DNA of 64,000 nucleotides from Stappia sp. WLB 29. Its GTDB lineage: Bacteria > Pseudomonadota > Alphaproteobacteria > Rhizobiales > Stappiaceae. The notes beneath the pieces are model-generated. The model worked only from the letters and a program-made list of their open reading frames with translations. It was not told the origin of the DNA and searched no databases. The position numbers and the translations under genes were made by a program. This document shows positions 39,338 through 57,398 of this stretch, one piece after another. The stretch spans positions 1 through 64,000 of the forward strand of contig NZ_JALBGD010000011.1 in the NCBI RefSeq assembly GCF_023507705.1. Direction: 5' to 3'. Each line of letters opens with the position of its first letter. Position 1 is the first letter of the stretch.

Positions 39338-40669
39338 TCATGCGAGAACGATGAGATCGGCTCTTTCGGACAGCCCGGGCACGACCTGGCAAGGGCGCAT
39401 TTCCGGCCCGAAATCCGCCAAACCGCGAGCCACCGCAGCCGCATAGGTGGCAGCATCCGTCAGCACGGTGGTGCCCTGTTGCTTGTTGGCGTCCTCCAGT
39501 TTTGCCGCTCGGTTGACTGCATCTCCAATGACGGTGAACTCGAGCCTGCCGGCGGCGCCCACCACGCCGACCGTGACCGGGCCGGACGCAATGGCCGCCC
39601 CCGCCCGCAAGGCTTCAGGCCACCCCACAAGCGTCAGGTCCGGTGCCAGATCGGCGAAAACCCGCGGAAGTTCCAGGCCCGCCCGCACCGCATCCGCCGC
39701 CGCTGTCGGACTGGGCGCGACCGCACCAAACGTCGCCAAAACCCCGTCACCGAGAAACTTGTCGACCTCGCCTCCATGGCGAGAGATGACGCGAAGCACC
39801 GCTTCCTGGTATCGAGACAGGATCATCATCACCGTCTCGGGCGGCAAGGTGGCAGCGATACGCGTGAAGCCGCGGATGTCGACCATCATGACGGCAGCGT
39901 CCCGCAGCCTTCCCTGCCCCGCAGTCAGCGCTTCCTCGGCGCCAGTGATCGAACGGGCCACCTCCGGTGCAAAGAACCGTCTCAGGTCCTGAGCGGCCGC
40001 GTGGTCGCGCACTGCTTCGAAGAACATCCTGCGCCCGCGGTAGAGCGCGACGGAAAGACACAGGGTAACCCCGAGGATGACGATGACCTTGTCGAGTTCT
40101 GCGCCGATCAGGATCGCGTTCGAGGTCAGATACTCGACGTAGTTGCGAGTGATGGACATGGAACCCATGCCCTGGAGGACGGCATAGAGCACCAGCGTAC
40201 CCCAGCCGAGCGCCCCGACGAGGCCGGTTATCAACACGAAGCGCGGCTCGAAGCGCAGCGCCCGCAGCGCGATGAACAGGAACAGATACATCAGCGTCGG
40301 CGCCTTCAGATAGAAGGTCGCCGGCTGCGCGTACTGGATATGGAACGAGAAGATCAGTCCGCACAAAAGAGCAACGTCGACGATGACCGAAATCACCAGA
40401 TACCAGAACGGCAGGTCTATTCGGTAGGACAGCGCCACACGCAGGATCGTGAACAAGGAATAGGCGCCAAGAGCCAGTGGCACGAAGTTGAACCCGCCGC
40501 CCCCTTCCGCACGAGGCGCGAGCGAGTAAAGCACCGCAAAGAACAGCACCATGGCCAGCTGGATCCAGCCGATCAGACGCTCCGCCTCTGTTTCGCGCCG
40601 AGCGATTTCCAAGCGCACACGCGCGGGAACGCCGCTCGCGTGGTCACCTCTTTTGCCGGCTCGTGCCAT
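39338..40669 (-). CDS. Membrane-bound adenylate/guanylate cyclase
   Basis: Class III nucleotide cyclase of 443 aa. Six or so hydrophobic segments (about 35-220) form a membrane anchor, followed by the cytoplasmic catalytic domain (about 240-430). Metal-binding Asp residues lie in MMVDIRGFTRIAA and DKFLGDGVLATFG; the Lys of VDKFLG and the Asp of FTVIGDAVN indicate ATP specificity. The transition-state Arg position reads Lys in VNRAAKLED, a variant seen in rhizobial cyclases. GGGAGGGG precedes the ATG at 40669. It follows the MBL hydrolase gene by 119 bases on the same strand and may be the last gene of that operon. Confidence 0.88.
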   Translation of the reverse strand: MARAGKRGDHASGVPARVRLEIARRETEAERLIGWIQLAMVLFFAVLYSLAPRAEGGGGFNFVPLALGAYSLFTILRVALSYRIDLPFWYLVISVIVDVALLCGLIFSFHIQYAQPATFYLKAPTLMYLFLFIALRALRFEPRFVLITGLVGALGWGTLVLYAVLQGMGSMSITRNYVEYLTSNAILIGAELDKVIVILGVTLCLSVALYRGRRMFFEAVRDHAAAQDLRRFFAPEVARSITGAEEALTAGQGRLRDAAVMMVDIRGFTRIAATLPPETVMMILSRYQEAVLRVISRHGGEVDKFLGDGVLATFGAVAPSPTAAADAVRAGLELPRVFADLAPDLTLVGWPEALRAGAAIASGPVTVGVVGAAGRLEFTVIGDAVNRAAKLEDANKQQGTTVLTDAATYAAAVARGLADFGPEMRPCQVVPGLSERADLIVLA

Positions 40670-40788
40670 CGCCCCTCCCCTCGCCAGGACGATCCTAACG
40701 CACAGGCGTTCTCGCAGCCTCGTCACTTTCCCTCGACGGGTCCGACCGTCTTGCGATCGTCACCTCGGCAAGGATGTCACCTTCGGCC

Positions 40789-41607
40789 TCACGGAACGAC
40801 AACCATCCCCTCACGTCCGACAACAGCCCCGGGATGCCGGCGGGAGGCTTCTTCGCCGATAGCGTCGAGCGCATCGTCGGACCGCCTCGGATCATGGTGA
40901 TGCAGAACCACTTGCGAGATCCCGGCCTCCAACCCCAGTTCGACACCCTTCTGCCAGGTGGAATGTCCCCAACCGGCATAACGAGCATATTCCTCGTCCG
41001 TATACATGGCGTCGTAAATCATCACGTCGGCGCCTTCCACGAAGCGCTGGACGGCCCGATCCACTTCGGCATTGCCATGCTCGTGATCGGTTATCACGCA
41101 GATCGATTTTCCCTCATGCGCAATCCGATAGCCCGTGGCGCCGCCCGGATGGTTGAGGGCAACCGTGGTCAAGCGTGCCGCCCCCTTGCGCTCGACCTCT
41201 CCACCGGCGCGGAAGTTGCGGAAAGTCACCGCCCGCAGCGTGTTGGCTGCCACGGGAAAGATCGGCGGCGACATGATGCGGCAGATGATGTCCATCAGCC
41301 CGGAACTGTCGGCGAAATGCCCGGCCCAGGCGTTGATGGAAAACCGGTCGTCATAGGCGGGCGTGAAGAACGGCAATCCGCAAATATGGTCGAGATGAGT
41401 ATGGGTGAAGAAGAGGTCGTATTCTGCCGGCGGACGGGCGTGCAGTTCCATTCCCAGATTACGCGCGCCTGATCCGCAGTCGATCATAAAGATGTCATCA
41501 CCGGCATGAACCTCGAAACACGTGGTCTCTCCGCCGTAGCGCAGTGTCGAGGGACCGGGCGTCGGCGTCGAGCCACGCACGCCCCACAGCTTCAGCGAAA
41601 GGGTCAC
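40789..41607 (-). CDS. MBL-fold metallohydrolase of the GVRGS type
   Basis: Metallo-beta-lactamase-fold protein of 272 aa. It opens LWGVRGSTPTPGPSTLRYGG, typical of a subgroup related to ribonuclease Z and some cyclic-nucleotide phosphodiesterases. The metal-binding motif is FFTHTHLDHICGLPF (about 79-93), with further His/Asp ligands in CVITDHEH and the C-terminal VVLHHHDPRRSDD. I chose the GTG at 41607, 19 bases after the cyclic-nucleotide-binding protein gene, because the protein then begins as the family does. Position between a cyclic-nucleotide-binding protein and a cyclase suggests it may hydrolyse cAMP; this is inference. Confidence 0.82.
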   Translation of the reverse strand: MTLSLKLWGVRGSTPTPGPSTLRYGGETTCFEVHAGDDIFMIDCGSGARNLGMELHARPPAEYDLFFTHTHLDHICGLPFFTPAYDDRFSINAWAGHFADSSGLMDIICRIMSPPIFPVAANTLRAVTFRNFRAGGEVERKGAARLTTVALNHPGGATGYRIAHEGKSICVITDHEHGNAEVDRAVQRFVEGADVMIYDAMYTDEEYARYAGWGHSTWQKGVELGLEAGISQVVLHHHDPRRSDDALDAIGEEASRRHPGAVVGREGMVVVP

Positions 41608-41626
41608 AGAAAGGCCATCCCCGTCT

Positions 41627-42085
41627 TCACGCCCTGCCGCCCGCGGACTGGAGTGCAACGAGATCCTGCGTGGTACGATCCAGGCGTTTGGCGAGCGTGC
41701 GCATCACCTCTAGCGACATATCCGGGAACTCCTTGAGGAGACGGAGGAAATCATCCTTCGAGACAGTCAGGACGTCCATCTCCTTGGTAGCTACGACAGT
41801 GGCCGTCCGGGGAACGTCGCACAGGATCGCGATCTCGCCAACTATCGAATTCTCGCCCAGCCGCGCCACCGCGCGTTCGCCGTCCGGGGTGCTCACACGC
41901 ACCTCGGCCTCACCGGCAAGGATGATGAAAGCAGAATCGCCCTCGTCTCCCTGATCGCAAAGGTGCTCGCCCGGCGTGAAGCGCGTCCGGTCGGAGATGA
42001 AGGCCAGGAGCCTTAGCTTGGTGGCGTCGATGCCCCGGAAAAGCGGCACACGCCGCAACGCATCGACTTCCGCATCAAGGGTCAC
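41627..42085 (-). CDS. Stand-alone cyclic-nucleotide-binding domain protein
   Basis: A 152-aa protein that is essentially one CNB domain (about 12-130) with a short C-terminal helix and no DNA-binding or catalytic part. The phosphate-binding cassette is intact: GENSIVGEIAILCDVPRTAT (about 83-102), with the Gly-Glu and Arg-Thr-Ala residues that contact cAMP or c[11 protein letters not shown] lies 5 bases before the GTG at 42085, which fixes the start. It sits between an ABC exporter gene and an MBL hydrolase gene in a minus-strand set that ends with a cyclase, so it probably relays cAMP to a protein partner. Confidence 0.88.
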   Translation of the reverse strand: MTLDAEVDALRRVPLFRGIDATKLRLLAFISDRTRFTPGEHLCDQGDEGDSAFIILAGEAEVRVSTPDGERAVARLGENSIVGEIAILCDVPRTATVVATKEMDVLTVSKDDFLRLLKEFPDMSLEVMRTLAKRLDRTTQDLVALQSAGGRA

Positions 42086-42170
42086 ATGTCCTCCTTCGGG
42101 AGCGCGGCCGGAACGGTACCGTACGCCTCCGCAGTCAGGTTGGGGACGGCCGTTATGGCGGGCAGTTGCA

Positions 42171-44765
42171 TCATGAGGCAGCTTCCTCATCCACAACGCG
42201 TCCCTGGTTCATCACGATACTATGGTCGAACTCGCCCGCCACGATCAAATTGGGCGCGCCGAACAGCAGCATCCGCCCCTTGAGCGCCCGGCGGATGGAG
42301 GAGCGAAGCGCCTTGTCGTCGTCGCTGCCGCTGCTTCCCGTGTCATCGAGAATGGTGATCGGGGCGTTCTTCATCAATGCCCGCACCAACGCAACACGCC
42401 GGCGCTGACCGGTGGAAAGGCGCGAACCCGCGACACCGACATGGAAATCGAGACCGGCGCGCACGATCGGGCGGCGCAGTTCCATCTCGTCGACGATCGA
42501 GCGGATGAGCCCGTCGATTTTCTCGCGCGCATCGCGCCGGTCGACGCGCGGACGGCCGAACAGAAGATTGTCCTCGATCGACATCGGCGCGATGAAGCTG
42601 TCGCGGTCGAACACGACAAAGCGGCTCTGGTCGCCATTGAGGCGCTTATGGAAGGCCGCACGTGCCGCGACGATCTCCTCGCGCATGGCTTCGTCGAGAA
42701 CGCCGAGGCGGTGACGCGCAGGAATGAGCTTGAAGGCCAGACCGATCAGCCGCTCCTTATCGGGGCCGCGCAGTTGCCCCTTCGAGGATTCGAGGCGAGA
42801 GATGCGCACGATCCTGTCGAATTCCGGCAACTCGTCGAGCGTGATGAAGGAGTAGTCGCCGAGCAGGCCGGAATCGTCGCTGACATTTGCGAACAGTTCG
42901 ACCATCGTGCCGGCGATCTTCATGCCGATCTCGACAAGCCGATCCCGCAAGCCCGTCTCTTCAAGTGCCGCCGCGACATCAGGATCCGATGCCAGGGTAT
43001 CGATGCCGAGGGTCGGGTCCACAGGCATCGCGAACAACAGGTTTTCGGCAAGACTGGCGGAATTGTTGAAGCGCTCTACATCCCAAAGCTCGACCATCGC
43101 CGCGAGGCGGCCGTCACCGGCAACCCTGTCTGCGAGTGCCCTGCGCACGGCAAGCACGCGGTCGGCGAACTCCGGATAGCGCGCCGGATCGATGGGCGAC
43201 TGCAACCCCATCCGGAACACGTCGGCGGCAAGTCCGGTCATCTCGATCAATTCGAGCGCGCGCGCATCCAGAGCGTCGACCGTATCGACACCAGCAGCCT
43301 CGAAGTCTTCCCACTCCGCCTCGATATCGTATTCCGGGTTCTGCGTTGCTCGCGCCTCGGCCAGCCGGCGGACATGCCTTGCCTTGTCATCCCCTTCCCG
43401 CTCCGGAGGACGCAACGGCCGATGGCGGAGGCCATAGAGAATGTTGTCGCGTACGGTGCCGGTCCACACATGTACCGAAGGACCGACATAGGCGATCTGG
43501 CGGCCAAGCACCGCCTCGCTCAGATTGTCGAGATTGTGCCCGCCTATCTCCACCCGTCCGCTTGTCGCCCCCAGCAGACCGGCCGCAAGCTGGAGCACCT
43601 CGGAGCGGCCGGACCCATCCGGCCCAGCGACGGCCGCATGCGCACCGGCCTTCACTGCCAACGAGACATCGAACACTTCCTGCCCCGCGGCTCCACCGGA
43701 GAAGCTGACGCTGCGCATCACCAGATCGCCGGCCAACTGCGTATCGGCGGTCTCGTCCGTGAGACGCGCAACCGGATAAATGTCGGCAGGATCGAAATTC
43801 TCGACCACCGTCTGGTACTTCACCTCGACGTCCGCAACCATCTGGTAGTAGGCGAGAAGCTCTTTCCAAGGGCCAGCAAGATCCTTGTACGCGGCGATGA
43901 CGGCCAGTAGCGCGCCGATCGACAGGTCACCTTCGATTACGAGCCAGCCACCGATCAGATAGAACAGGAACGGCGTCAACTGGTTCATGAAGTTGTTCAG
44001 AAACTTTATGAAATACTTCCAGTTGAAGATCTTGAAGCGGATCTGGTAGTTGGTATAGAGGCGCTCGGAAATATCCGCGGAATGCCAAGCAGATGCGTCG
44101 TTGGCATGAATTTCCGACACGCCGCCGATGCTCTCACCAATCTTGTCGGCGATCACCCGTACATTACGTACGCGCTGGCGCGACAGCAGAACGACCCGCT
44201 TCTGCAGCTTCGGGATGACATAGGCCTGCATCGGATAGGAGGAAATGGCTGCCAGCCCGAGCAGCGGATCCTGCATGAAGATGAAGCCGATCTGCACGGC
44301 CAGCATACCGCCCTGATAGGCGGGAAGCGCCACAGCCTCGCCGATGAAGCCGCCAACGTCCTCCACCTCCGATGTGATCATCGGGATGATCTCGCCGGAA
44401 CTGACCTTCTTGAAGTGCGGCAGACGGAAACGCAGGACGCGCTGGAACAGCTCGAATCGCAGGCGGCGCAACATGCGCTCGCCGAGCCGGCCCTTATAGA
44501 CGTTCAAGGCAAGCTTGATGCCGTTGGATAGAATCACCAGACCGAGAAAGGCCAGGCACAACACGACCAGGTAGGAAACCTGGTCGAACTCGAACCCATA
44601 GACCTCACGCGGGAAGTTTTCGCCCTGAATCGCGTCGTTGACGATGAGCTTCGGAAGCTCCAGCAGCACATAGGTGACCGGATAGGCGATCACCGTAATG
44701 AGCAGGATCGTCAGTTGCTGACGGGCGCTGTATCGCCAGATGAACTTGAAGAGGCTTTTTTCCAT
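42171..44765 (-). CDS. ABC exporter with a degenerate, insertion-bearing ATPase domain
   Basis: Membrane-spanning ABC protein of 864 aa. Residues about 15-310 are a type IV exporter membrane domain. The ATPase domain is abnormal: Walker A reads GPDGSGRSE (381-389; Arg instead of Lys), the Q-loop Gln appears lost (AYVGPS, 425-430), Walker B ends ITILDDTG (803-810; Asp instead of catalytic Glu) and the H-loop His is absent (FGAPN, 835-839), yet LSTGQ (783-787) is kept. Between Q-loop and signature lie about 320 extra residues holding two more copies of the NLLF/G segment. The ATG at 44765 is chosen because an earlier one overlaps the putative -10 box. Confidence 0.82.
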   Translation of the reverse strand: MEKSLFKFIWRYSARQQLTILLITVIAYPVTYVLLELPKLIVNDAIQGENFPREVYGFEFDQVSYLVVLCLAFLGLVILSNGIKLALNVYKGRLGERMLRRLRFELFQRVLRFRLPHFKKVSSGEIIPMITSEVEDVGGFIGEAVALPAYQGGMLAVQIGFIFMQDPLLGLAAISSYPMQAYVIPKLQKRVVLLSRQRVRNVRVIADKIGESIGGVSEIHANDASAWHSADISERLYTNYQIRFKIFNWKYFIKFLNNFMNQLTPFLFYLIGGWLVIEGDLSIGALLAVIAAYKDLAGPWKELLAYYQMVADVEVKYQTVVENFDPADIYPVARLTDETADTQLAGDLVMRSVSFSGGAAGQEVFDVSLAVKAGAHAAVAGPDGSGRSEVLQLAAGLLGATSGRVEIGGHNLDNLSEAVLGRQIAYVGPSVHVWTGTVRDNILYGLRHRPLRPPEREGDDKARHVRRLAEARATQNPEYDIEAEWEDFEAAGVDTVDALDARALELIEMTGLAADVFRMGLQSPIDPARYPEFADRVLAVRRALADRVAGDGRLAAMVELWDVERFNNSASLAENLLFAMPVDPTLGIDTLASDPDVAAALEETGLRDRLVEIGMKIAGTMVELFANVSDDSGLLGDYSFITLDELPEFDRIVRISRLESSKGQLRGPDKERLIGLAFKLIPARHRLGVLDEAMREEIVAARAAFHKRLNGDQSRFVVFDRDSFIAPMSIEDNLLFGRPRVDRRDAREKIDGLIRSIVDEMELRRPIVRAGLDFHVGVAGSRLSTGQRRRVALVRALMKNAPITILDDTGSSGSDDDKALRSSIRRALKGRMLLFGAPNLIVAGEFDHSIVMNQGRVVDEEAAS

Positions 44766-46248: not shown

Positions 46249-47490
46249 ATGTCCCGTATCGCCGTTGTCGTAAAAGGGTATCCGCGTCTTTCGGAGACTT
46301 TCATCGCGCAGGAGATCCTCGGCCTGGAGCGCCGCGGGATCGGCCAGTTGATCGTCGCCCTGCGCCAGCCCTACGACCCTTTCATCCACGAAGTACACCG
46401 GCAGATCTCGGCCGAAGTGCTCTATCTGCCGGAATATGTGAAGGATGATCCTGCGCGCGTTGCCCGGGCAAAACGCTGGGCTGAACGGCAGCCGACCTAC
46501 CGCGATGCCCACGCCCTGTTCATGGCCGACTTCGCCAGGGAACCGAATGCCAACCGCCAGCGCCGCTGGGCACAGGCCTGCGTCTTCGCGCATGAACTCC
46601 CCGGCGACGTCGCCTGGATCCACACCCACTACCTGCATACGCCCTGTTCGGTGGCGCGGTACGCGGCGCATCTGTCTGGGCGCGGCTGGTCGTTTTCCGC
46701 CCATGCCAAGGACATCTGGACCAGCGAGGAATGGGACCTGCGGGTGAAGCTCGACGATGCCGCCTGGGGCGTCACCTGCACCCGCGTCAATCTCGACCAT
46801 CTCCGCTCGCTCTGCGCGCAGCCGGACAAGCTGGAACTTGTCTATCACGGGCTGGACTTCTCGCCTTTCCCCGGCCGCAAAGTCTGCGGCGAGGGCGATG
46901 GCAGGCAAGCCGGTCCGGTCCGCATTCTCTCCGTGGGTAGAGCCGTGGAGAAGAAGGGTTACGACGACCTTCTGGCGGCTCTGGCAGCCCTGCCCGAAGG
47001 GCTGGACTGGCATTTCGAGCATATCGGCGGCGGTGAGCAGGCGACCCGTCTGGCGGATCTCGCCAGCTCGCTCGGCATTTCCAGCCGCGTCACTTGGCAT
47101 GGAGCACGACCGCGTGAGGACGTAATCGAAGCCACGCAGCGGGCAGATCTCTTCGTCCTCGCCTCGAAGGTGGCGAAGTCCGGCGACCGCGACGGCCTGC
47201 CCAACGTGCTGATGGAGGCCCAGGCGATGGGCCTGTGCTGCCTCGCCACCGATGTCTCGGCAATCCCCGAGCTCATTCGCAATGGAAAGACCGGTCTCCT
47301 GGTGCCGCCGGGGGATCGCGAGCGCTTGCGCGATGCGCTTGCCTCGCTCATAGCCGACCCGGCTCTGCGCGAGCAGCTTGGCAGAGCCGCCTCCGATGAT
47401 GTCCGCACACGCTTTTCGACGGATCCGGGCCTCGACCGGTTGGCAGCGCGCTTCGCCCCCCACCTGAAGGAGCGGGCACGAGCCTCTTAA
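46249..47490 (+). CDS. Glycosyltransferase family 4 (WcaL-like)
   Basis: Retaining GT-B glycosyltransferase of 413 aa. The N terminus IAVVVKGYPRLSETFIAQEI is the standard opening of WcaL/AmsK-type enzymes of exopolysaccharide synthesis. The second Rossmann domain has RILSVGRAVEKKGYDDLLAA (about 224) and the donor-site block KSGDRDGLPNVLMEAQAMGL with the conserved Glu of the EX7E motif, then GLLVPPGDRERL. It follows the first glycosyltransferase gene by 62 bases and precedes the next by 20. Confidence 0.9.
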   Translation: MSRIAVVVKGYPRLSETFIAQEILGLERRGIGQLIVALRQPYDPFIHEVHRQISAEVLYLPEYVKDDPARVARAKRWAERQPTYRDAHALFMADFAREPNANRQRRWAQACVFAHELPGDVAWIHTHYLHTPCSVARYAAHLSGRGWSFSAHAKDIWTSEEWDLRVKLDDAAWGVTCTRVNLDHLRSLCAQPDKLELVYHGLDFSPFPGRKVCGEGDGRQAGPVRILSVGRAVEKKGYDDLLAALAALPEGLDWHFEHIGGGEQATRLADLASSLGISSRVTWHGARPREDVIEATQRADLFVLASKVAKSGDRDGLPNVLMEAQAMGLCCLATDVSAIPELIRNGKTGLLVPPGDRERLRDALASLIADPALREQLGRAASDDVRTRFSTDPGLDRLAARFAPHLKERARAS

Positions 47491-47510: not shown

Positions 47511-48638
47511 ATGCGCGTCGCCTTCACAGCTCCGATGAAGCCCCTCGACGATCCGGTGCCGTCCGGCGACCGAACCATGGGCAGGCTGATCGTCCAGGCG
47601 CTGGAAGCAGCGGACCACGAGGTGACGGTCGCAACACGGTTTCGGTCATGGAGGGCGACCGGCGGCATCGAGGTTCAACAGGAGGTGGAGCGGGCAGCGC
47701 TCGCGGAAGCAGAGGGTGTCCTGTCATCGTGGGAGGCGTCAGGCTACCGCCCCGACCTCTTCCTGACCTATCACCTCTATCACAAGGCCCCCGACTGGAT
47801 CGGCCCGGCGATAGCTTCGCGGCTGGGCATCCCCTATGTCGTCGTCGAGGCCAGCCGCGCCCCCAAGCGCAAGACGGGCGAATGGGCCTATGGCTTTGCC
47901 GCGGCAGACGCCGCACTGGCGCGCGCCGATCTGGTTGCGGCCATGCACAGGGCAGACAGGGAATGCCTTGCCGCGGTCGTTTCCGCGGAGCGCCTTGCGG
48001 TCCTTGCCCCGTTTCTCGACGCAAGCCGATTCCTGCAGGCGTCCCGTATCCCGCGCCGGGAGGGTGAACCCATCCGACTGCTTGCCATCGGCATGATGCG
48101 CGAGGGAGCGAAGCTTGCCTCCTATCGCGTGCTCGCCGATGCGCTGGACCGATTGCCGAGCTCTTCCCGTTTCACCCTCACCGTTGCCGGAGACGGGCCT
48201 TGCAGGGCGGAGGTCGAGGCGCTGCTCGCCCATTATCCGGTCACCTTCACGGGCGCTGTTGCGGGAGACGATATTCCGACCCTTTGCGCCTCCCACGACC
48301 TCTTCGTCTGGCCGGCGATCCGCGAGGCATTCGGCCTCGTCTTCCTCGAGGCTCAGGCGGCCGGCCTTGCCATTGTAGGCGGCGACACGTTCGGCGTGCC
48401 CGATATCGTCGCCCATGGTGCAACCGGACTTCTGTCGAGTGAGGGCGACGCCGCAGCTTTCGCGCAAAACCTCGCGGCGCTTGTGTCGGATCCTGCTCGC
48501 GCGGCGGGCATGGGGCTTGCTGCCCGCGAACACATCCGCGAGCGGCACACGCTGTCGAGCGGTGCCGACAGTCTCCACGGGCTGCTGGGGCAAGCCTTGC
48601 GCAACTTCGCCCTGCGCGCTACCGCTTCGCCGCAATGA
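47511..48638 (+). CDS. Glycosyltransferase family 4 protein
   Basis: GT-B glycosyltransferase of 375 aa. The N-terminal domain starts MRVAFTAPMKPLDDPVPSGD, with a GRLIVQALEAADHEVTVATR helix. The donor-binding C-terminal domain has FTLTVAGDGPCRAEVEALLA, LFVWPAIREAFGLVFLEAQA (EX7E) and the GVPDIVAHGATGLL loop. AGGAG lies before the ATG. The end overlaps the next gene by ATGA, showing translational coupling in the glycan operon. Substrate unknown. Confidence 0.88.
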   Translation: MRVAFTAPMKPLDDPVPSGDRTMGRLIVQALEAADHEVTVATRFRSWRATGGIEVQQEVERAALAEAEGVLSSWEASGYRPDLFLTYHLYHKAPDWIGPAIASRLGIPYVVVEASRAPKRKTGEWAYGFAAADAALARADLVAAMHRADRECLAAVVSAERLAVLAPFLDASRFLQASRIPRREGEPIRLLAIGMMREGAKLASYRVLADALDRLPSSSRFTLTVAGDGPCRAEVEALLAHYPVTFTGAVAGDDIPTLCASHDLFVWPAIREAFGLVFLEAQAAGLAIVGGDTFGVPDIVAHGATGLLSSEGDAAAFAQNLAALVSDPARAAGMGLAAREHIRERHTLSSGADSLHGLLGQALRNFALRATASPQ

Positions 48639-49789
48639 CACGATCCGCCTTCATCCATGTCCAGCACCTGCTCGGGACCGGCCACGCCCTGCGTGCTGCC
48701 GCCATCGGCCGCGCGCTCGCAGCGCGCGGTATCTCGGTGACGCTCGCAACCGGGAACCGGCTTCCGCCGCTGCTCGACACCACGGGTATCGCGATCGTCG
48801 AACTACCGCCGGTGAGGGCACAGGACGCGCGCTTCAAAACCTTCCTGACACCGGAGGGGCACGAGATCGGCGAGGCGTGGAAGACGGCTCGTACCCAGGC
48901 CACTCTGGACGCCTTTCGGGATCGGCCGTTCGACCTGCTGCTCACTGAAACATGGCCGTTCGGACGGCGCCCCTTCGCGTTCGAGATGCAAAGTCTGGTC
49001 GACGCCGCCAGGGCGCAGTCCCGCCCGCCGCTCATCGCCTCCTCCATCCGCGATATCCTCGTGCGAAAGCAGGAGCTCTGGAAGGAGGAGGAGATGGCGG
49101 AGCGGGCGCTGGCCGCCTACGACCTGGTCCTCGTCCACTCCGACCCGTCCTTCATCCGGCTGGAGGACAGCTTTCCCTTCGCCGACCGCGTGTCGCATCT
49201 GCTGCGCTACACCGGCTTTGCGGAGACGGGCACGGGTGGCACAGAGGCCCCAGGCGACGACGGCAGCGACGAGGTCATTGTCTCCTGCGGCGGCGGCGCC
49301 GTCGGCATCGGACTGCTCAGGGCTGCCCTGAAAGCTCCCGCCCTTTCCCGTCTTGCCGGCGAGTGTCGCTGGCGGCTCCTCGCCGGCCATGACATCGACG
49401 AGGAGAGCTTTCTGGAGCTGTCCAGGCAGGCCGCAGAGAACATCATTGTCGAGCGGGCTCGGCGAGACTTTCCATCGCTGCTCGAGCGGGCCCGCCTTTC
49501 GATCAGCCAGGCGGGCTACAACACCGTTCTGGATATTTTACGGGCCGGCGTGCCCAGCGTGCTTGTGCCCTTCGCCCAGATCAAGGAAACGGAGCAGCAG
49601 CAGCGAGCGGATGCGCTGGTGCGCCATGGCCGCGCCGTTACTGTTCCGGAAAAGACGCTCACACCAGAGGCCCTTGCAAGAGCCGCCGACGATGCATTGA
49701 GCCTGCCGCGGCGCGATATCCCGGTTCGATTCGGCGGGGCGGAGACGGCTGCCGATATCATGGTGGATGCGCTGGAGGCCCGCCGATGA
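48635..49789 (+). CDS. Glycosyltransferase, MurG/GT28-like
   Basis: A 384-aa GT-B protein. It opens FIHVQHLLGTGHALRAAAIG, with the Gly-His pair of MurG-like proteins, and its C-terminal domain holds VIVSCGGGAVGIGLLRAALK and the donor-site segment LSISQAGYNTVLDILRAGVP followed by VLVPFAQIKETEQQQRADAL. It is similar in layout to the first glycosyltransferase of the operon. Overlaps both neighbours by 4 bases (ATGA), so the last three genes of the operon are tightly coupled. Confidence 0.88.
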   Translation: MTRSAFIHVQHLLGTGHALRAAAIGRALAARGISVTLATGNRLPPLLDTTGIAIVELPPVRAQDARFKTFLTPEGHEIGEAWKTARTQATLDAFRDRPFDLLLTETWPFGRRPFAFEMQSLVDAARAQSRPPLIASSIRDILVRKQELWKEEEMAERALAAYDLVLVHSDPSFIRLEDSFPFADRVSHLLRYTGFAETGTGGTEAPGDDGSDEVIVSCGGGAVGIGLLRAALKAPALSRLAGECRWRLLAGHDIDEESFLELSRQAAENIIVERARRDFPSLLERARLSISQAGYNTVLDILRAGVPSVLVPFAQIKETEQQQRADALVRHGRAVTVPEKTLTPEALARAADDALSLPRRDIPVRFGGAETAADIMVDALEARR

Positions 49790-50595
49790 GAGAGGCCGGG
49801 CTTCGCGACTTTCGGGACGTTCTCGATCGGCATCTCGACTGGTTCGCCGAACGCGGCCACGCCGTGCCGGTCTGGTGGCGCGACGACGATGCGATCGAGC
49901 CCACCCCGGCGCTTGATCGGCTGCTGCATATCGCAAACACGCACGAGATCGAGGTCGCGCTCGCAGTGATCCCCGCGAATGCGACAGAGGCTCTTGCCAA
50001 CCGGCTTTCCGGCGAGCGCTTCGCCTCGGTCGTTCAGCACGGATACGAGCACCGCAACTTCCAGGACAAGACGCGAGGAGAAAAGGCCGCGGAGTTCGGC
50101 CGCCGGCGCGATCCCGACGAGGCGCTTGCCGTTCTTGCCCGTGGCAACAAGCGCCTGGCCGAGTTGTTCGGCTCGCGCTTCGTGCCGGTCATGGTGCCGC
50201 CGTGGAACCGTATCGCGCCGCGCATCTCAGCCCGACTGACGGAAGCCGGGCTTGCAGGCCTGTCGACCTTCACACAGTTTCATCCGCGTGCGCTTGTACA
50301 GGTGCAGACGCATGTGGACATGATCAAGTGGAAGAAGGAGCGGCGCTTCATCGGCTGGCATTCGGCCAGCCTGCGCTTCGATTACCATCTGACGCGAAGA
50401 CGCACGAACCCGGCCGAGCCGCTGGGCATCCTCTCCCATCACCTGGCGCAGAACGACGCCTGCTTCGAGTTTCTGGAGAGGACGTTCGAGATCTTGCGGG
50501 CGCATCCCGGCGCCCGCTTCGCCCGCATATCCGAGCTTCTGGACGCCGAGCGGATGGAGCGAGGCCTGTCGCCGGTCAGCCGGCCGCGGGCCTGA
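49786..50595 (+). CDS. Polysaccharide deacetylase family protein (NodB-like fold)
   Basis: A 269-aa cytoplasmic protein with a carbohydrate-deacetylase fold. The Asp pair expected at the metal site is in VPVWWRDDDAIEPTPALDRL (about 27-46) and the His pair in VVQHGYEHRNF (about 83-93); the catalytic motif order matches the family although the first motif differs from the classical TFDDG. VPPWNRIAPRISARLTEAGL supplies motif 3. No signal peptide, so it should act on a cytoplasmic, lipid- or nucleotide-linked glycan. Last gene of the operon; its end overlaps the convergent methyltransferase gene by 20 bases. Confidence 0.85.
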   Translation: MREAGLRDFRDVLDRHLDWFAERGHAVPVWWRDDDAIEPTPALDRLLHIANTHEIEVALAVIPANATEALANRLSGERFASVVQHGYEHRNFQDKTRGEKAAEFGRRRDPDEALAVLARGNKRLAELFGSRFVPVMVPPWNRIAPRISARLTEAGLAGLSTFTQFHPRALVQVQTHVDMIKWKKERRFIGWHSASLRFDYHLTRRRTNPAEPLGILSHHLAQNDACFEFLERTFEILRAHPGARFARISELLDAERMERGLSPVSRPRA

Positions 50596-51261: not shown

Positions 51262-52422
51262 TCACTTATACGGGTCGGCGGCGTCGCGCAAACCGTCGCC
51301 AAGGAAATTGAACGCGAGCACGACGATGATGATGGGAACGACCGGCGCCATCAGCCAGGGATAGATGACCACAACCGAGATATCCTGCGCCTCGTTGAGC
51401 AGGACGCCCCAGGACACCGCAGGCCGGCGCAGACCGAGGTTGAGGTAGGACAGCGCCGTCTCGCCGAGGATCATCGCCGGGATCGACAGGGAGGCCGATG
51501 CGATGATGTGGCTCGTGAAGCCCGGCAGCAGGTGCTTGCGGATGACGCGCGAAGGCTTCGCCCCCATCAGCAGTGCGGCCTTGGCATATTCCTCCTCGCG
51601 CAAAGCCAGCAGCTTGGAGCGCACGGCACGCGCAAGACCGGGCCAGTCGAGCAGGCCGAGGATCACCGTGATGCCGAGATAGATCCAGACGGGCGACCAG
51701 GTGACCGGAAGGGCGGCCGACAGTGCCATCCACAAGGGCAGTTCCGGCAGCGAGCGCAGGATCTCGATCACCCGCTGGATTGCGCTGTCGATGAGGCCAC
51801 CGAAAAAGCCGGCCAGCCCGCCGAAGAACAGTCCCAGCACGATGGAGATGGTCACGCCGATCAGGCCGACGGTAAGCGACAGGCGCGCGCCATATACGAG
51901 GCCGGAGAACACATCCCGCCCCAATCGGTCGGTACCGAGGAGGTAGAGCGTCCCGTCCTTCGCCGGACAGACAAGGTGGAAGCTCGCATCGAAAAGACCC
52001 CAGAACCTGTATTGCGGTCCGAAGCAGAAGAAGCGCAGCGGCTGCACGTCCTGGCGGTCTTCGGTGTAGACCCAGCGCACCGTCTCCAGGTCGATATCCG
52101 CCTTCAGGCCGTAGACGAACGGGCCGACGAAGGAGCCTTCATGGAACAGGCGCAGCGTCTGCGGCGGCGCGTAGAGATGGTCGTTGGAGCGCTGGTTCGG
52201 TGAGTAGGGTGCGATCACCTCGGCAAACGGGACGCACAGGTAGAACAGGATGAGGATCACGCCCGACCACACGGCGACCCGATGGCGGCGGAACTTCCAC
52301 CACATGATCGTCCACTGCGAGGCCTGATAGTAACGCTCCTGCTCCGGGGTAAGCGTTTCTGCGTGAGACGGGTTGAATGCGTCCGGATTGACGTAGTGCT
52401 CGGGCTCGTTGCGCATGTTCAT
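51262..52422 (-). CDS. Peptide ABC transporter permease (OppC type)
   Basis: Inner-membrane permease of 386 aa, longer than the usual OppC (~300) because of a ~110-residue periplasmic insert after the first helix (around LYAPPQTLRLFHEGSFVGPF and QYRFWGLFDASFHLVC). The conserved block YLLGTDRLGRDVFSGLVYGA and the EAA loop EEYAKAALLMGAKPSRVIRK are normal, and it ends NFLGDGLRDAADPYK. A long extra segment of this kind occurs in YejE-like permeases. The ATG at 52422 overlaps the OppB stop as TGATG, after GGGGGAAGG. Last gene of the importer operon. Confidence 0.9.
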   Translation of the reverse strand: MNMRNEPEHYVNPDAFNPSHAETLTPEQERYYQASQWTIMWWKFRRHRVAVWSGVILILFYLCVPFAEVIAPYSPNQRSNDHLYAPPQTLRLFHEGSFVGPFVYGLKADIDLETVRWVYTEDRQDVQPLRFFCFGPQYRFWGLFDASFHLVCPAKDGTLYLLGTDRLGRDVFSGLVYGARLSLTVGLIGVTISIVLGLFFGGLAGFFGGLIDSAIQRVIEILRSLPELPLWMALSAALPVTWSPVWIYLGITVILGLLDWPGLARAVRSKLLALREEEYAKAALLMGAKPSRVIRKHLLPGFTSHIIASASLSIPAMILGETALSYLNLGLRRPAVSWGVLLNEAQDISVVVIYPWLMAPVVPIIIVVLAFNFLGDGLRDAADPYK

Positions 52423-53441
52423 CACGCCTTCCCCCCAAGCCGGATACGCGGGTCGAGGACCGCCAGAAGCAGATCCGACACCAGCATGCCGATCAGCGTC
52501 AGGACCGCGACGAAGAGCAGGATGAAGCCGGCGAGAAACTGGTCCTGCGACTGCAGGGCATTCAGCAACACAGGTCCGACCGTCGGCAGGTTGAGCACCA
52601 CCGACACGATGACCGAGCCGGAAACAAGCGAGGGGATCAGGTTGCCGATATCGGCAATGAACGGATTGAGCGCCATGCGCAGCGGATACTTCACCAGAAG
52701 GCGGGACTCGCGCAGGCCCTTGGCGCGCGCCGTTGTCACGTATTGCTTGTGGAGTTCATCCAGAAGATTCGCCCGCAGGCGCCGGATCATCGCCGCCGTG
52801 CCGGCGGTTCCGATGACCACCGTCGGCACGATCAGGTGCGCCAGCACCGACAGCGCCTTCCCCACGCTCCAGGGCTGGCCGATGTATTCCGGCGCCATGA
52901 GCCCGCCGACCGACAGGCCGAACCAGAGGTTGGCGAAGTACAGCATGATCAGGCCGAGAAGGAAGTTCGGCGTCGCAAGCCCGATATAGCCGATGAACGT
53001 GAAGCCGTAGTCGCCCCAGGAATATTGCCTGGTCGCCGAATAGATGCCGATCGGGAAGGAGACGACATAGACGAACAGGATCGTCGCCGTGTTCAGCACG
53101 ATGGTCAGCGGCAGGGTCGGCCCCACCACTTCGGACACCGGCTTCTCGTATTCGAAAGACCAGCCCCAATTGCCCTGCAGCAACCCGTCGAAGCCATGTA
53201 CGCCCGGCCAAAGGCCGATCCAGATCAGGTAGCGCTCCAGGAATGGCCGGTCGAGTGCGAACTCCGCCCGCAGGAACTCGAGCTTGGCGATGGATGCGCT
53301 TTCTCCGGTCGCTCGCAGAGCTGCAATCTGGTTGGAGATGTAGTCACCGGCCGGAAGCTCGATGATGACGAATGTCAGCAGGCTGATCACGAACAGCGTC
53401 GGGATCATCGTCAACACCCGGCGCAGGATATAGTAGAGCAT
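52422..53441 (-). CDS. Peptide ABC transporter permease (OppB type)
   Basis: Inner-membrane permease of 339 aa starting MLYYILRRVLTMIPTLFVIS. The family block SFEYEKPVSEVVGPTLPLTI precedes the central helices, the EAA loop is YVTTARAKGLRESRLLVKYP, and it ends LLAVLDPRIRLGGKA. A GGGGGA lies about 9 bases before the ATG at 53441; the TTG one codon earlier is too close to it. The gene is 39 bases downstream of the binding-protein gene and coupled to the OppC-type gene. Confidence 0.92.
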   Translation of the reverse strand: MLYYILRRVLTMIPTLFVISLLTFVIIELPAGDYISNQIAALRATGESASIAKLEFLRAEFALDRPFLERYLIWIGLWPGVHGFDGLLQGNWGWSFEYEKPVSEVVGPTLPLTIVLNTATILFVYVVSFPIGIYSATRQYSWGDYGFTFIGYIGLATPNFLLGLIMLYFANLWFGLSVGGLMAPEYIGQPWSVGKALSVLAHLIVPTVVIGTAGTAAMIRRLRANLLDELHKQYVTTARAKGLRESRLLVKYPLRMALNPFIADIGNLIPSLVSGSVIVSVVLNLPTVGPVLLNALQSQDQFLAGFILLFVAVLTLIGMLVSDLLLAVLDPRIRLGGKA

Positions 53442-53480
53442 CAAGCGGTTCCCCCAGCGCCCCGCAGCGCCATTCTCACG

Positions 53481-55379
53481 TCACTTCCGGTAGAATTCGT
53501 CCATTCGGTGAATGCCGAACTGAGCACCGGGATCCCAGCCGTAAATGCCTTCCTTCGGCACATTGCCGAGACCCTTCACCACAATCGGCTGACGGACTTC
53601 CGACACCAGCCCGATATGAATCGTCTCCTCGGCATGGATCTTCAGGATCTCATGCCAGATTTCCGTCCGCTCCTCCTCGGAGCTGGACTTCAGCCAGTCG
53701 TCGTAGAGCTGCGTCAACCGGATCGCCGGCTCCCAGTCCGGCTTTTCTCCGGTCTGACCGTCGGTCTCGTACCAATTGCCCCAACGCGACCAGGACAGGA
53801 AATCGCTGCGCACCGGCGCAAAGTCCTCCGGCGGCATTTCCGAGGTCGGAATCCCGTTTTCGAAACCCGCCCACACCGACATGACCAGCAGGCCCGATAG
53901 CGCCCGTTCGCGGATGATGTCGCGCTGGCTCGGCTTGGCGAACAGCTTCACGCCGATCTCGCGCCAGGTCTCCCCCACGAGTTCCAGCGCGTCGAGCTCT
54001 TCCTGGCTCTCGCCGGTCGCCTCGACGATGATCTCGAGCGGCCGGCCATCCGGCATCAGCCGCACTCCGTCGCCCCGGCGCTCCGTCAGGCCTATCTCGT
54101 CCAGCAGGCGATTCGCCTCCTCGGGGTCAAACTGGGCATGGAGATCGCGGTACTCTTGACGATACAGCGGGCTCTGCTCGAGCACCGTATCGTTGCCCGG
54201 CGTCGCGAGCCCGAGATAAAGCACCTTGTTGATCATCTCGCGGTCGATGCCGAGCGAGAGCGCACGGCGGAACCTCGTATCCAGCATCAGCTTGCGCCAG
54301 ACCGGATCGGCGACCGTCAGGTTGGGTTGCAGGGAAATCTGCGAGCCCTTGCTGATCGGCCAGAGATAGGTCTCGAACCGGCCGAGCTTTTCGCCGCGCT
54401 TGAGGATCGTGATGTCGGAAAAGCCGATATTGCGCGCCTGCAGGTCGGCTTCGCCGGCCTGGGTCTTCGCGGCGATGATCTTGCCATCAGCCACCGTCAT
54501 GATGACGCTGTCGAGATAGGGCAGCTGCTGCCCTGCGGAATCGATCCGATGGTAGAACGGATTCCGGTGCAGCACGAACCGCCGCTCGCTGTCATCCACC
54601 AGCCTCACCCATGGCTGCAGGCTGGGCAGCCCCGGGTTCCGGGCATCATACATGTCGTCCATCTTGTTGAAGAGCGCGGCCCAGCTGCGCAGCTTGCGCT
54701 CTTCTGCCAGCTTCTGGATCTTCTCCGCATCCCCGTAGCGCGCGTGGAACTGCTTCAGGTAATGCGCCGGACGATAGATGAAGGGCGGACGCGACTTGGC
54801 CAGTTCCGGCTTGAACAGCGGGTTGGGAGCGTCCCACATGAAGCGGACAGTCGTCTCGTCGATCACCTCGAAGACCGGTGGCTTGCCCCCGGCCAGCATG
54901 AACTGCGGCAGGCCCGAGGGCTGGAGCTCGGCATTCGAGGCGACATCCTTGTACCAGAACCGGATATCCTCGGAGGTGAACGGGTGGCCGTCCGACCACT
55001 TGTGCCCTTTGCGCAGGACGAGGGTGAAGATGCGCCCTTCTTCCTCGATAAAGTCCTTCAGGATGTCGGGCACCAGCTCCAGCTGCTCGTTATAGGCAAC
55101 GAGACGGGCGTAACCCCAGACGTTGATCAGGCGCACGTCGCGCGAGCGGCCGATCAGCGTGTCGATCTTGCCGCCCGGCGTACCGATCTGGCGGCCGCGC
55201 GCCTCCAGGTCGACGATCAGCGGCTCCTCCGGCACCCGCTCCGAAACCGGCGGCAGGTCGGTGCCGACCCGCGGCGCAAGCGACGGCGTCTCCTTCAGCG
55301 TCAGAGCCGACGCCGGCAAGGCCGCAAGCACGGACGCGCAGAGCAGGGCAAGGGCAGGCAGCACGGTGCGGGATTTCAT
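53481..55379 (-). CDS. Peptide-type ABC transporter substrate-binding protein (large)
   Basis: Periplasmic family-5 binding protein of 632 aa. A signal peptide ([20 protein letters not shown], cleavage probably after ASA at ~25) is visible. The body contains the SBP_bac_5 hallmark TLVLRKGHKWSDGHPFTSED and RFRRALSLGIDREMINKVLY. It is about 100 residues longer than typical DppA/OppA, in keeping with the YejA-like size class. Unusually, it is encoded after the ATPase gene, overlapping it by ATGA. The ligand cannot be deduced. Confidence 0.9.
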   Translation of the reverse strand: MKSRTVLPALALLCASVLAALPASALTLKETPSLAPRVGTDLPPVSERVPEEPLIVDLEARGRQIGTPGGKIDTLIGRSRDVRLINVWGYARLVAYNEQLELVPDILKDFIEEEGRIFTLVLRKGHKWSDGHPFTSEDIRFWYKDVASNAELQPSGLPQFMLAGGKPPVFEVIDETTVRFMWDAPNPLFKPELAKSRPPFIYRPAHYLKQFHARYGDAEKIQKLAEERKLRSWAALFNKMDDMYDARNPGLPSLQPWVRLVDDSERRFVLHRNPFYHRIDSAGQQLPYLDSVIMTVADGKIIAAKTQAGEADLQARNIGFSDITILKRGEKLGRFETYLWPISKGSQISLQPNLTVADPVWRKLMLDTRFRRALSLGIDREMINKVLYLGLATPGNDTVLEQSPLYRQEYRDLHAQFDPEEANRLLDEIGLTERRGDGVRLMPDGRPLEIIVEATGESQEELDALELVGETWREIGVKLFAKPSQRDIIRERALSGLLVMSVWAGFENGIPTSEMPPEDFAPVRSDFLSWSRWGNWYETDGQTGEKPDWEPAIRLTQLYDDWLKSSSEEERTEIWHEILKIHAEETIHIGLVSEVRQPIVVKGLGNVPKEGIYGWDPGAQFGIHRMDEFYRK

Positions 55380-57268
55380 TGGGCTGCCTCCATCGAAAGC
55401 GGCGTACCGTTACCGACAAGACCCGGCGCGCATACGAAATGCCCTTTCTCCATCTCCACCAGCACCGGGCGAACACCATCGACGATGCGGTAAGGCTCGG
55501 GCCAGAGATCGGGTTCCGATGCCCGGCCCGCCTCCAGCGCCGCAAAATCCAGAGGAGCATTCAGATCGGGCTCCGGCACGGAGGCGAGCAGCGCGCGAGT
55601 GTAGGGATGGAGCGGATTTCCGATCACATCACGTGTACTGCCGACCTCGACCACCCGTCCTCGGCACATCACGGCCAGCCGTTCGGCGATATAGTCGACG
55701 ACCGCAAGATTATGACTGACGAAGAGATAGGTGAGCCCGAGCTCTTTCTTCAGGTCCCGCAGCAGATTGAGGATCTGCGCCTGCACCGATACGTCGAGCG
55801 CCGATGTAGGCTCGTCGCAGAGAATGAATTCCGGATTGAGCGCAAGTGCCCGCGCAATGCCGATACGCTGGCGCTGACCGCCTGAGAACGAATGCGGGTA
55901 GCGACGCAGGAAGCGCGGATCGAGCCCGACGAGGCGCATCAACTCGCGTACCCGCTCGGCCCGCTCCTCCGGAGTGCCGACCTTGTGGATCACGAGCGGC
56001 TCCATCAGCAACTCGTTCACTGTCATCCGCGGGTTCAGCGACGAGAACGGATCCTGGAAGATCAGTTGCACCCGGCGGCGGTATTCCAGCAGATCAGGTC
56101 CCTGCATGCTCGCGACATCGACAGGCCCCTCGCCGCAGTCGTAGCGGATCGCGCCCTCGTTGATCTCGATCGCCCGCAGGATCGCCTTGGCGGCGGTCGT
56201 CTTGCCGGAGCCGCTTTCGCCGACAAGGCCGAGGCATTCGCCGCGCTTCACGGTCAGGTTGACATTGTCGAGCGCCAGAACCGTTCGCGTTCCGCCTCCC
56301 AGAAACCCGCCCTTGCGGGTGGTGAAACGCTTGGTGACGTCGGTCATGCTCATCAGCGGCTGGCCGACGGCGCAGGCGCGTTCTGAGCGTCCCTTCTTGA
56401 GGAAGCCTTCCGCGTGCGGCTCGATCGGTCGGATCGGCACCAGCCGCTCGCCTTCATCCATGCCGAAGCGCGGCACCGCGTTGAGCAGTGCCTTGAGGTA
56501 GTCGTGGCGAGGATCGGCGAAGAGGGATGCGGCGCTGCCGCGCTCCATGATCCGTCCGTGGTAGATCACCACCACCTCGTCGGCCATGTTGGCGACAACG
56601 CCGAAATCGTGGGTGATGAGCAGCGTCGACATCTGCAACTCGGCCTGCACATCCTTGATCAGCTTGAGGATCTCGGCCTGGATGGTGACGTCGAGCGCAG
56701 TCGTGGGCTCGTCGGCGATCAGCAGTGCCGGATGGCAGATCATCGCCATGGCGATCATCGCACGCTGGCGCAGGCCGCCGGATAGCTCGAAGGCATAGGA
56801 ATCGAGAGCGCGCGCCGGATCGGGAAACCGCACCAGCCGCAACATTTCCCGCGTCAGTTCGCGCGCCTCCTGTGCGCTGACGCCCCGATGCAGCTCGGCC
56901 GCCTCGCCGATCTGGTCGCCGATCGTGTGAAGTGGCGACAGGGACGTCATCGGCTCCTGGAAGATGATGGCGATCCGGTTGCCGCGGATGGCACGCATGG
57001 CCGCCCCCTTGCGATCGAGGGCGGCGATGTCGACCGCGGCAGCTGTGTCGTTCTCCCGAAACAACACGCGGCCGCCAGTGATATGCGCCTTTTCCGGCAG
57101 AAGGCCCATGATCGTCTGGGAAATGACGGTCTTGCCGGAGCCGGACTCTCCCACAAGAGCCACGGTCCGATTGCGGGGAACGGAAAAGGAGACATCGTCG
57201 ACGGCTCGGATGCGGCCTTCGCCGGTCAGGAAATCGACACTCAGCCCGTCGATCGTCAACACATCCAC
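55376..57268 (-). CDS. Fused peptide ABC transporter ATP-binding protein (two ATPase domains, YejF-like)
   Basis: A 630-aa protein with two ATPase domains in tandem. Domain 1 has Walker [17 protein letters not shown] (about 39-54), signature [15 protein letters not shown] and Walker [14 protein letters not shown]. Domain 2 has [16 protein letters not shown] (about 350), signature [15 protein letters not shown] and [15 protein letters not shown]. Both look functional. The GTG at 57268 follows GGAGGAGG 8 bases upstream. It leads the importer operon; a TATAAT -10 box and a CRP-type site lie upstream. Confidence 0.9.
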
Positions 57269-57316
57269 GTGGCTTTTCCTCCTCCAGACGCCCTCGGTGT
57301 TTTCCGTTGTCGCGCC

Positions 57317-57322
57317 ATTATA
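57317..57322 (-). promoter_or_regulatory. -10 box of the peptide importer operon
   Basis: A perfect TATAAT on the minus strand, about 50 bases before the GTG start. No good -35 hexamer is visible 17-18 bases further upstream (CTTTCG), which fits an activator-dependent promoter. Confidence 0.55.
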
Positions 57323-57398
57323 GGAGACCAGTGCCAGCACGAAAGTGCGTGTTGCCCCTTGCCCCCCTGTCGCTCTTAACAGTGCTAGCGCAGGCGCG

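Follow-up and report, generated by a model that had tools for sequence, protein, structure and literature searches.

The question raised by this locus is what work is left to an ATP-binding cassette (ABC) exporter whose ATPase domain has been split by a long insertion and has lost the residues that normally hydrolyse ATP. The locus lies in a stretch of 64,000 nucleotides from Stappia sp. WLB 29 (contig NZ_JALBGD010000011.1, positions 1 to 64,000, hereafter the window), and the gene in question encodes an ABC exporter-derived protein of 864 amino acids on the reverse strand (42171..44765, an open frame with its ATG at 44765), referred to below as the variant ABC protein. It is read here, with about an even chance of being right, as an exporter-derived glycan flippase whose motor would no longer hydrolyse ATP and which would be gated by a cyclic nucleotide through a partner protein.

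The variant ABC protein carries the Pfam domains PF00664 (ABC_membrane) and PF00005 (ABC_tran) in this order, both above the gathering score, and the PF00005 match falls in two stretches. The transmembrane domain (TMD, approximately residues 1-330, 43776..44765, with PF00664 at residues 64-290) is the best-conserved part and is followed by a degenerate Walker A, read from the sequence as AGPDGSGRS, in which Lys is replaced by Arg (residues 380-388, 43602..43628). The motif TVRDNILYG (copy 1; residues 437-445, 43431..43457) occupies the normal place after the Q-loop. The insertion that splits the ATPase domain (approximately residues 446-726, 42588..43430) was delimited by the distance from this motif to the ABC signature and by the split Pfam match, and two similar motifs, SLAENLLFA (copy 2; residues 571-579, 43029..43055) and SIEDNLLFG (copy 3; residues 729-737, 42555..42581), precede the signature LSTGQ (residues 783-787, 42405..42419). 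Walker B (residues 803-808, 42342..42359) reads ILDD, with Asp in place of the catalytic Glu; Pro429 takes the place of the Q-loop Gln, and no H-loop His is left. The positions of the three motifs and the change of all four catalytic residues (Walker A Lys, Q-loop Gln, Walker B Glu and H-loop His) therefore stand as given in an earlier interpretation made from the letters alone, hereafter the sequence-only reading. The gene is present as a single full-length copy in its own genome.

Between the TIxENxxxG motif and the signature, the variant ABC protein has 337 residues, whereas an ordinary exporter encoded in the same genome has 39, which indicates an insertion of about 298 residues. This is a little less than the roughly 320 residues claimed in the sequence-only reading, which was right about the insertion itself. 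That reading had also interpreted the insertion as a piece of the ATPase domain copied in tandem, and the repeat comparison with permuted controls bore this out. With hhalign, the family profiles of copies 1 and 2 scored 39, those of copies 1 and 3 scored 51 and those of copies 2 and 3 scored 88, whereas none of the 60 column-permuted controls per pair exceeded 18.5, and the three segments scored 9.3 to 15.1 against six other parts of the same protein (18 comparisons). With the non-redundant alignment of 85 family members, the corresponding P values were 5.7e-7, 2.6e-8 and 1.4e-16. Each copy alone also matched the Q-strand-to-helix segment of ordinary exporters, with E values of 5e-16, 1.3e-5 and 1.8e-7 for copies 1, 2 and 3 and scores of 85, 34 and 40, where the maxima of 40 permuted controls each were 22.3, 15.4 and 20.6. 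The matches between copies and with the exporter indicate that two additional copies of the Q-strand/TIxENLLFG/helix segment form the core of the insertion; copy 1 sits at the usual Q-loop position, and copy 3 extends into the signature. The Asn of the motif is found in 75 of the 85 members in copy 1 and in all 85 in copy 2 (Asn575) and copy 3 (Asn733), and Gly737 of copy 3 is likewise present in 85/85. The triplication is real, family-wide and far beyond chance.

Structure prediction gave no confident model of the full-length protein, for which AlphaFold2 reached a pLDDT of 54.7 with 14 close sequences. For the nucleotide-binding domain (NBD) alone the pLDDT was 64.2, and the model showed a strand, a short helix and two helices around each copy, which is too weak to place the copies. 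A Foldseek search with this NBD model returned weak matches (best E 2.5e-4, TM 0.12) that were not used as evidence.

The fate of the catalytic residues was followed across the family. The 119 aligned rows were reduced to 111 by dropping L014, L078, L095, L096, L103, L104, L106 and L122, and then to 85 by removing every row with 85% identity or more to a row already kept. Among these 85 members, the Walker A Lys is kept in 18, the Q-loop Gln in 7, the catalytic Glu in 22 and the H-loop His in 7, and 55 members have none of the four. The sequence-only reading had proposed to check in homologues whether these residues are lost throughout the family. The catalytic Glu is still there in some Stappia relatives (for example L002, L003 and L005), and two distant relatives, L068 and L073, keep all four residues, so that the losses do not define the family. 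L068 and L073 carry the insertion as well, which is why the insertion most likely preceded the catalytic loss, the loss being later and repeated. On the family TMD tree, the fewest changes needed are 8 for Lys, 5 for Gln, 14 for Glu and 5 for His, while the motif Asn needs 4 in copy 1 and none in copy 2 or copy 3; this is a quick, unrooted tree whose counts cannot separate gain from loss, and it was used because the outgroup-rooted tree placed the outgroups on branches of length 10 and was unusable. The changes are read as losses since ordinary exporters have the canonical state.

Other parts of the nucleotide-binding site are retained more widely. Walker A Gly381 is present in 71/85 members and Gly386 in 70/85, GSGRS is found in the window protein and its near relatives, and Gln787 of the signature is kept in 69/85. 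The LSTGQ signature, said in the sequence-only reading to be well kept, is indeed kept in the window protein, but across the family a signature of the LSxxQ type occurs in only 28/85. The same reading had called the membrane domain well kept, and this holds throughout: mean identity of the relatives to the window protein is 55% in the TMD, 37% in the canonical NBD parts and 36% in the insertion, and TMD identity exceeds NBD identity in 84/84 relatives paired with the window protein. For the ordinary exporter used as control, the NBD was above the TMD in 28/29 comparisons and the TMD above the NBD in 1/29. This control consisted of the 30 best loci of an order-wide search in which 58 genomes matched, and its reading frames were picked partly by a Walker A pattern, which all 30 loci gave, so that the presence of Walker A there is not independent. 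At 95% or more of the 85 rows, 46 of 330 TMD positions are conserved, and invariant or near-invariant positions were found in the TMD, the insertion and the C-terminal part.

The most constant companion of the variant ABC protein is a protein with a cyclic nucleoside monophosphate-binding (cNMP) domain. In the window it is encoded on the same strand (41627..42196, 5' limit uncertain), with PF00027 matching at E 4e-22 on 41627-42112 and the pocket motif GEIAILCDVPRTATV. A cNMP domain was found at 112 of 122 loci, as a separate gene on the same strand at 95 and fused to the variant ABC protein at 17, and PF00027 was confirmed in two fused proteins; in the encoded fused form the domain lies at the C-terminus. 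In the non-redundant set the domain is adjacent on the same strand or fused in 84/85 members (fused in 16) and missing only from L111. The other loci without it are a TMD-only locus (L122), the diverged paralogues L103, L104 and L106 (with the duplicates L095 and L096) and the non-members L014-L016. The unfused gene lies -373 to +622 bases from the ABC gene (95 loci). The overlap of 373 bases belongs to L068, a draft contig, where the cNMP gene overlaps a long ABC frame and a frameshift is possible. Fused paralogues also occur two or three per genome (L097, L098 and L099 in one, L101 and L102 in another), and their Walker A is unrecognisable.

The cyclic-nucleotide pocket of this partner is kept. 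The Glu and Arg of the phosphate-binding cassette are characteristic residues of such pockets, and in the family motif GEIAILCDVPRTAT the acidic position is Glu or Asp in 82/84 (Glu in 75) and the Arg is present in 83/84, in the partner or the fused domain. The residue after the pocket Arg is Thr or Ser in 69/84; in eukaryotic kinases and channels, Thr or Ser at this place favours or permits cyclic GMP (cGMP). The window cNMP protein showed no other Pfam domain above the cutoff and no helix-turn-helix was matched in it, and one record names a relative of it Crp/Fnr. Since no further Pfam domain is present, it is probably not a transcription factor. A near-obligate cNMP partner suggests that the variant ABC protein may be switched by a signalling nucleotide and not driven by ATP. 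This supports the nucleotide sensing proposed in the sequence-only reading, which had not mentioned the partner, but it points to a cyclic nucleotide and not to ATP.

The surroundings of the gene favour a flippase or exporter role for the variant ABC protein over the channel-like one suggested in the sequence-only reading, as they are rich in glycan genes. Four glycosyltransferases are encoded on the forward strand: GTa (GT28-like, PF04101, 44966..46186), GTb (GT4, 46249..47490), GTc (GT4, 47511..48638) and GTd (GT28-like, 48635..49789). They are followed on this strand by a polysaccharide-deacetylase-like protein (49786..50595), which scores below the Pfam gathering threshold and has 35% identity to an annotated Sinorhizobium meliloti deacetylase. 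In 150 genomes of the order, GTa and the variant ABC protein occur together in 53, the ABC protein alone in 5, GTa alone in 3 and neither in 89 (Fisher p 8e-31, a value that overstates the association because the genomes are related). The neighbourhood is different in Azospirillum and Ruegeria, which have fused forms; in Azospirillum one glycosyltransferase was found, at the edge of the stretch.

Twelve window genes have counterparts, at 35-61% identity, in a 42-kb stretch of pSymB of S. meliloti ml46; one aligned piece per pair is listed, covering part of GTa and GTd. Shared among the 12 are the variant ABC protein, the cNMP protein, a metallo-beta-lactamase-fold (MBL) hydrolase (PF12706, with HTHLDH in the translation; 40789..41658, reverse strand), the four glycosyltransferases, the deacetylase and an oligopeptide-type (Opp) ABC importer of two permeases, a binding protein and an ATPase (51262..57340, reverse strand), which has 45-61% identity to four S. 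meliloti genes. No other flippase was recognised among these 12 genes. The ml46 block probably corresponds to the smb21252-smb21271 region, a placement made from gene order and from the anchors SMb21247 (deacetylase), SMb21248 (aminotransferase) and SMb21249 (sulfotransferase) (PMC5498481). Nine genes of this region are reported as necessary for the phazolicin-protecting polysaccharide (PPP), an uncharacterised surface polysaccharide proposed as a shield against phazolicin; genes with a possible part in PPP synthesis are reported to be under the control of cyclic AMP (cAMP), and cyaA, an adenylate cyclase gene elsewhere in the genome, was depleted in the screen (PMC10128002). Seven of the nine PPP genes are up-regulated under Myxococcus attack (PMC10315480). 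In the accessible parts of the PPP study, transposon sequencing (Tn-seq) and mutants define the polysaccharide locus; the ABC protein, its insertion and a role for the cNMP gene are not described in those parts (PMC10128002).

The following mechanism is proposed. The variant ABC protein would be a derived type I ABC exporter, acting as a homodimer, in which the ATPase domain now serves as a regulatory scaffold. The Q-strand/TIxENLLFG/helix segment would have gained two more copies, inserted ahead of the signature, and most lineages would then have lost the residues for hydrolysis. In ordinary exporters this segment helps dock the coupling helices, and the extra modules may likewise dock these helices, or they may dock the cNMP domain. 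When the cNMP domain, encoded next door or fused at the C-terminus, binds cAMP or cGMP, the conformation would shift. The neighbouring glycosyltransferases would make a PPP-type surface glycan, which the protein would export or flip, either as such or as a lipid-linked precursor, with ATP hydrolysis not needed in the window protein. A more specific form is offered tentatively: a cyclic-nucleotide-gated ABC flippase or channel that would move lipid-linked or free glycan without ATP hydrolysis, with three docking modules per subunit, and would be opened by the cNMP subunit.

Several observations weigh against a cyclic-nucleotide-gated, non-hydrolysing glycan flippase. L068 and L073, with their complete set of catalytic residues, may hydrolyse ATP, and the Walker A GSGRS and signature LSTGQ make residual ATP binding possible in the window protein. 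The variant ABC protein occurs without GTa in 5 of 58 genomes, and in Ruegeria, which has the fused form, no glycosyltransferase is listed within 9 kb of it. The class III nucleotidyl cyclase on the far side of the MBL gene (cyclase 1; PF00211; 39338..40726, reverse strand) lies beside the ABC gene in 11 of 13 close relatives and was not found in L006 and L011, and some 16 kb separate the MBL gene from the ABC gene in S. meliloti; this leaves the cNMP protein as the one partner that is nearly fixed. The transcription factor Clr may instead mediate the effect of cAMP in S. meliloti (PMC5498481), and in the accessible parts of the PPP papers the ABC gene is not named among the nine PPP genes (PMC10128002, PMC10315480).

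Some of these points are also what an ATP-driven protein would predict. A glycan flippase that binds ATP via the GSGRS loop and hydrolyses it slowly in a non-canonical manner, the cNMP partner merely modulating it, would fit L068 and L073, as well as the wide retention of Gly381, Gly386 and Gln787 and the GSGRS loop of the window protein and its near relatives. This is judged rather unlikely, as 55 of the 85 members have none of the four catalytic residues, conservation is lower in the NBD than in the TMD, opposite to the ordinary exporter, and Walker A is unrecognisable in L097-L102. Loss of the catalytic residues together with retention of the repeat motifs, and the near-obligate cNMP domain, would equally suit an SUR-like regulatory receptor. 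Such a receptor would move no substrate itself; it would respond to a cyclic nucleotide or a glycan intermediate and regulate another transporter or the glycosyltransferases. The strongest constraint falls on the TMD, however, and the 12 genes shared with the S. meliloti block contain no other recognised flippase, which makes a receptor improbable.

The change of the Walker B Glu to Asp is also seen in the degenerate halves of heterodimeric exporters, and the variant ABC protein might be such a half, its canonical half being encoded elsewhere, as in TAP or TM287/288. Some genomes do encode a second insertion-type NBD on a diverged TMD, and one of them (G475) has the variant ABC protein as well. 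Canonical halves are usually encoded next door, but no adjacent canonical half-transporter was found: the window contains no second exporter-like match to the variant ABC protein, and the gene tables of the S. meliloti and Mesorhizobium stretches, which are incomplete, list no exporter half. A heterodimer is therefore considered quite improbable. A decaying pseudogene would explain the lost catalytic residues but can practically be dismissed, since no internal stop was seen among the matches listed, the partner gene has been kept beside the ABC gene in 84/85 non-redundant members, and invariant or near-invariant positions persist in the TMD, the insertion and the C-terminal part.

The variant ABC protein shares its TMD family with type I exporters of the MsbA/ABCB kind (TIGR02203, P-glycoprotein, NdvA) and keeps the Walker A-to-Q-loop half followed by the signature-to-Walker B half in the same order. 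Its best NCBIfam match is MsbA_lipidA (TIGR02203) at 171.9 bits, far below the cutoff of 602 bits, and its best PDB sequence matches are of the ABCB type. Unlike these exporters, it has the insertion with two extra Q-strand/TIxEN modules, and its family has mostly lost the catalytic residues and conserves the TMD more than the NBD. ABC proteins acting as a gated channel or regulator are represented by CFTR and SUR, which resemble the variant ABC protein in combining an ABC exporter fold, a degenerate ATPase site and regulatory control, and differ from it in that their composite site still binds or hydrolyses ATP. To our knowledge, a triplicated segment is not known in CFTR or SUR. The nearly fixed partner of the variant ABC protein is a cNMP-binding domain.

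A family in which the ATPase has decayed in many lineages, with the TMD and the tripled segment fixed, amounts to a natural experiment on non-hydrolytic roles of the NBD, and since its members range from near-canonical to wholly degenerate, the question can be tested directly. If gating by a cyclic nucleotide is true, second-messenger gating would be added to the ways of running the ABC fold, and a candidate exporter, together with its switch, would be at hand for the surface polysaccharide with which rhizobia are shielded from an antimicrobial peptide.

The variant ABC protein represents a genuine and conserved variant among ABC exporters that is common in alphaproteobacteria, and its nearest named relatives are from Stappia. 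Within the order, 58 of 150 genomes encode relatives at E <= 1e-60, and the insertion profile matches 59 of 190 genomes of the class and 25 of 299 genomes of the phylum sample, all 25 from the same class (the window's own genome being counted each time). Among 72,556 plasmid records, 331 match at E <= 1e-50, including 144 from Rhizobium and 80 from Sinorhizobium, and 247 of the plasmid matches have one place covering at least 80% of the query. A scan of viral contigs found no relative, and no description of the family was found in the open-access literature searched.

Two related forms were also observed. TMD-only ABC proteins of about 437 amino acids without an NBD are encoded on three roseobacter plasmids (L122 7773-9077, L132 6773-8077 and L133 6773-8077). 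They are 41-43% identical to the window TMD (residues 1-324 or so), but instead lie in a conserved operon of TolC, copper oxidase, copper-binding protein, azurin and cytochrome c genes in the three stretches examined, a copper-resistance neighbourhood; no cNMP match was found at L122, the one locus tested. These NBD-free relatives would be the extreme of the same trend, a motor turned gate. In other genomes, an insertion-type NBD stands on a strongly diverged membrane region (L103, L104 and L106) and a cNMP gene was not found nearby; L106 adjoins class III cyclase matches.

In the window, the methyltransferase at 50576, the DHAD and the SDR had no counterpart in the ml46 stretch. Two class III cyclases flank the glycan cluster (39338-40726 and 57465-59372) and match the ml46 block weakly (27%). 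The Opp importer adjoins the glycosyltransferases and is syntenic with the S. meliloti cluster. Both rhizobial versions of the cluster that were examined carry a conserved DUF3095 protein (L118 15028-16191 and L131 18924-20126).

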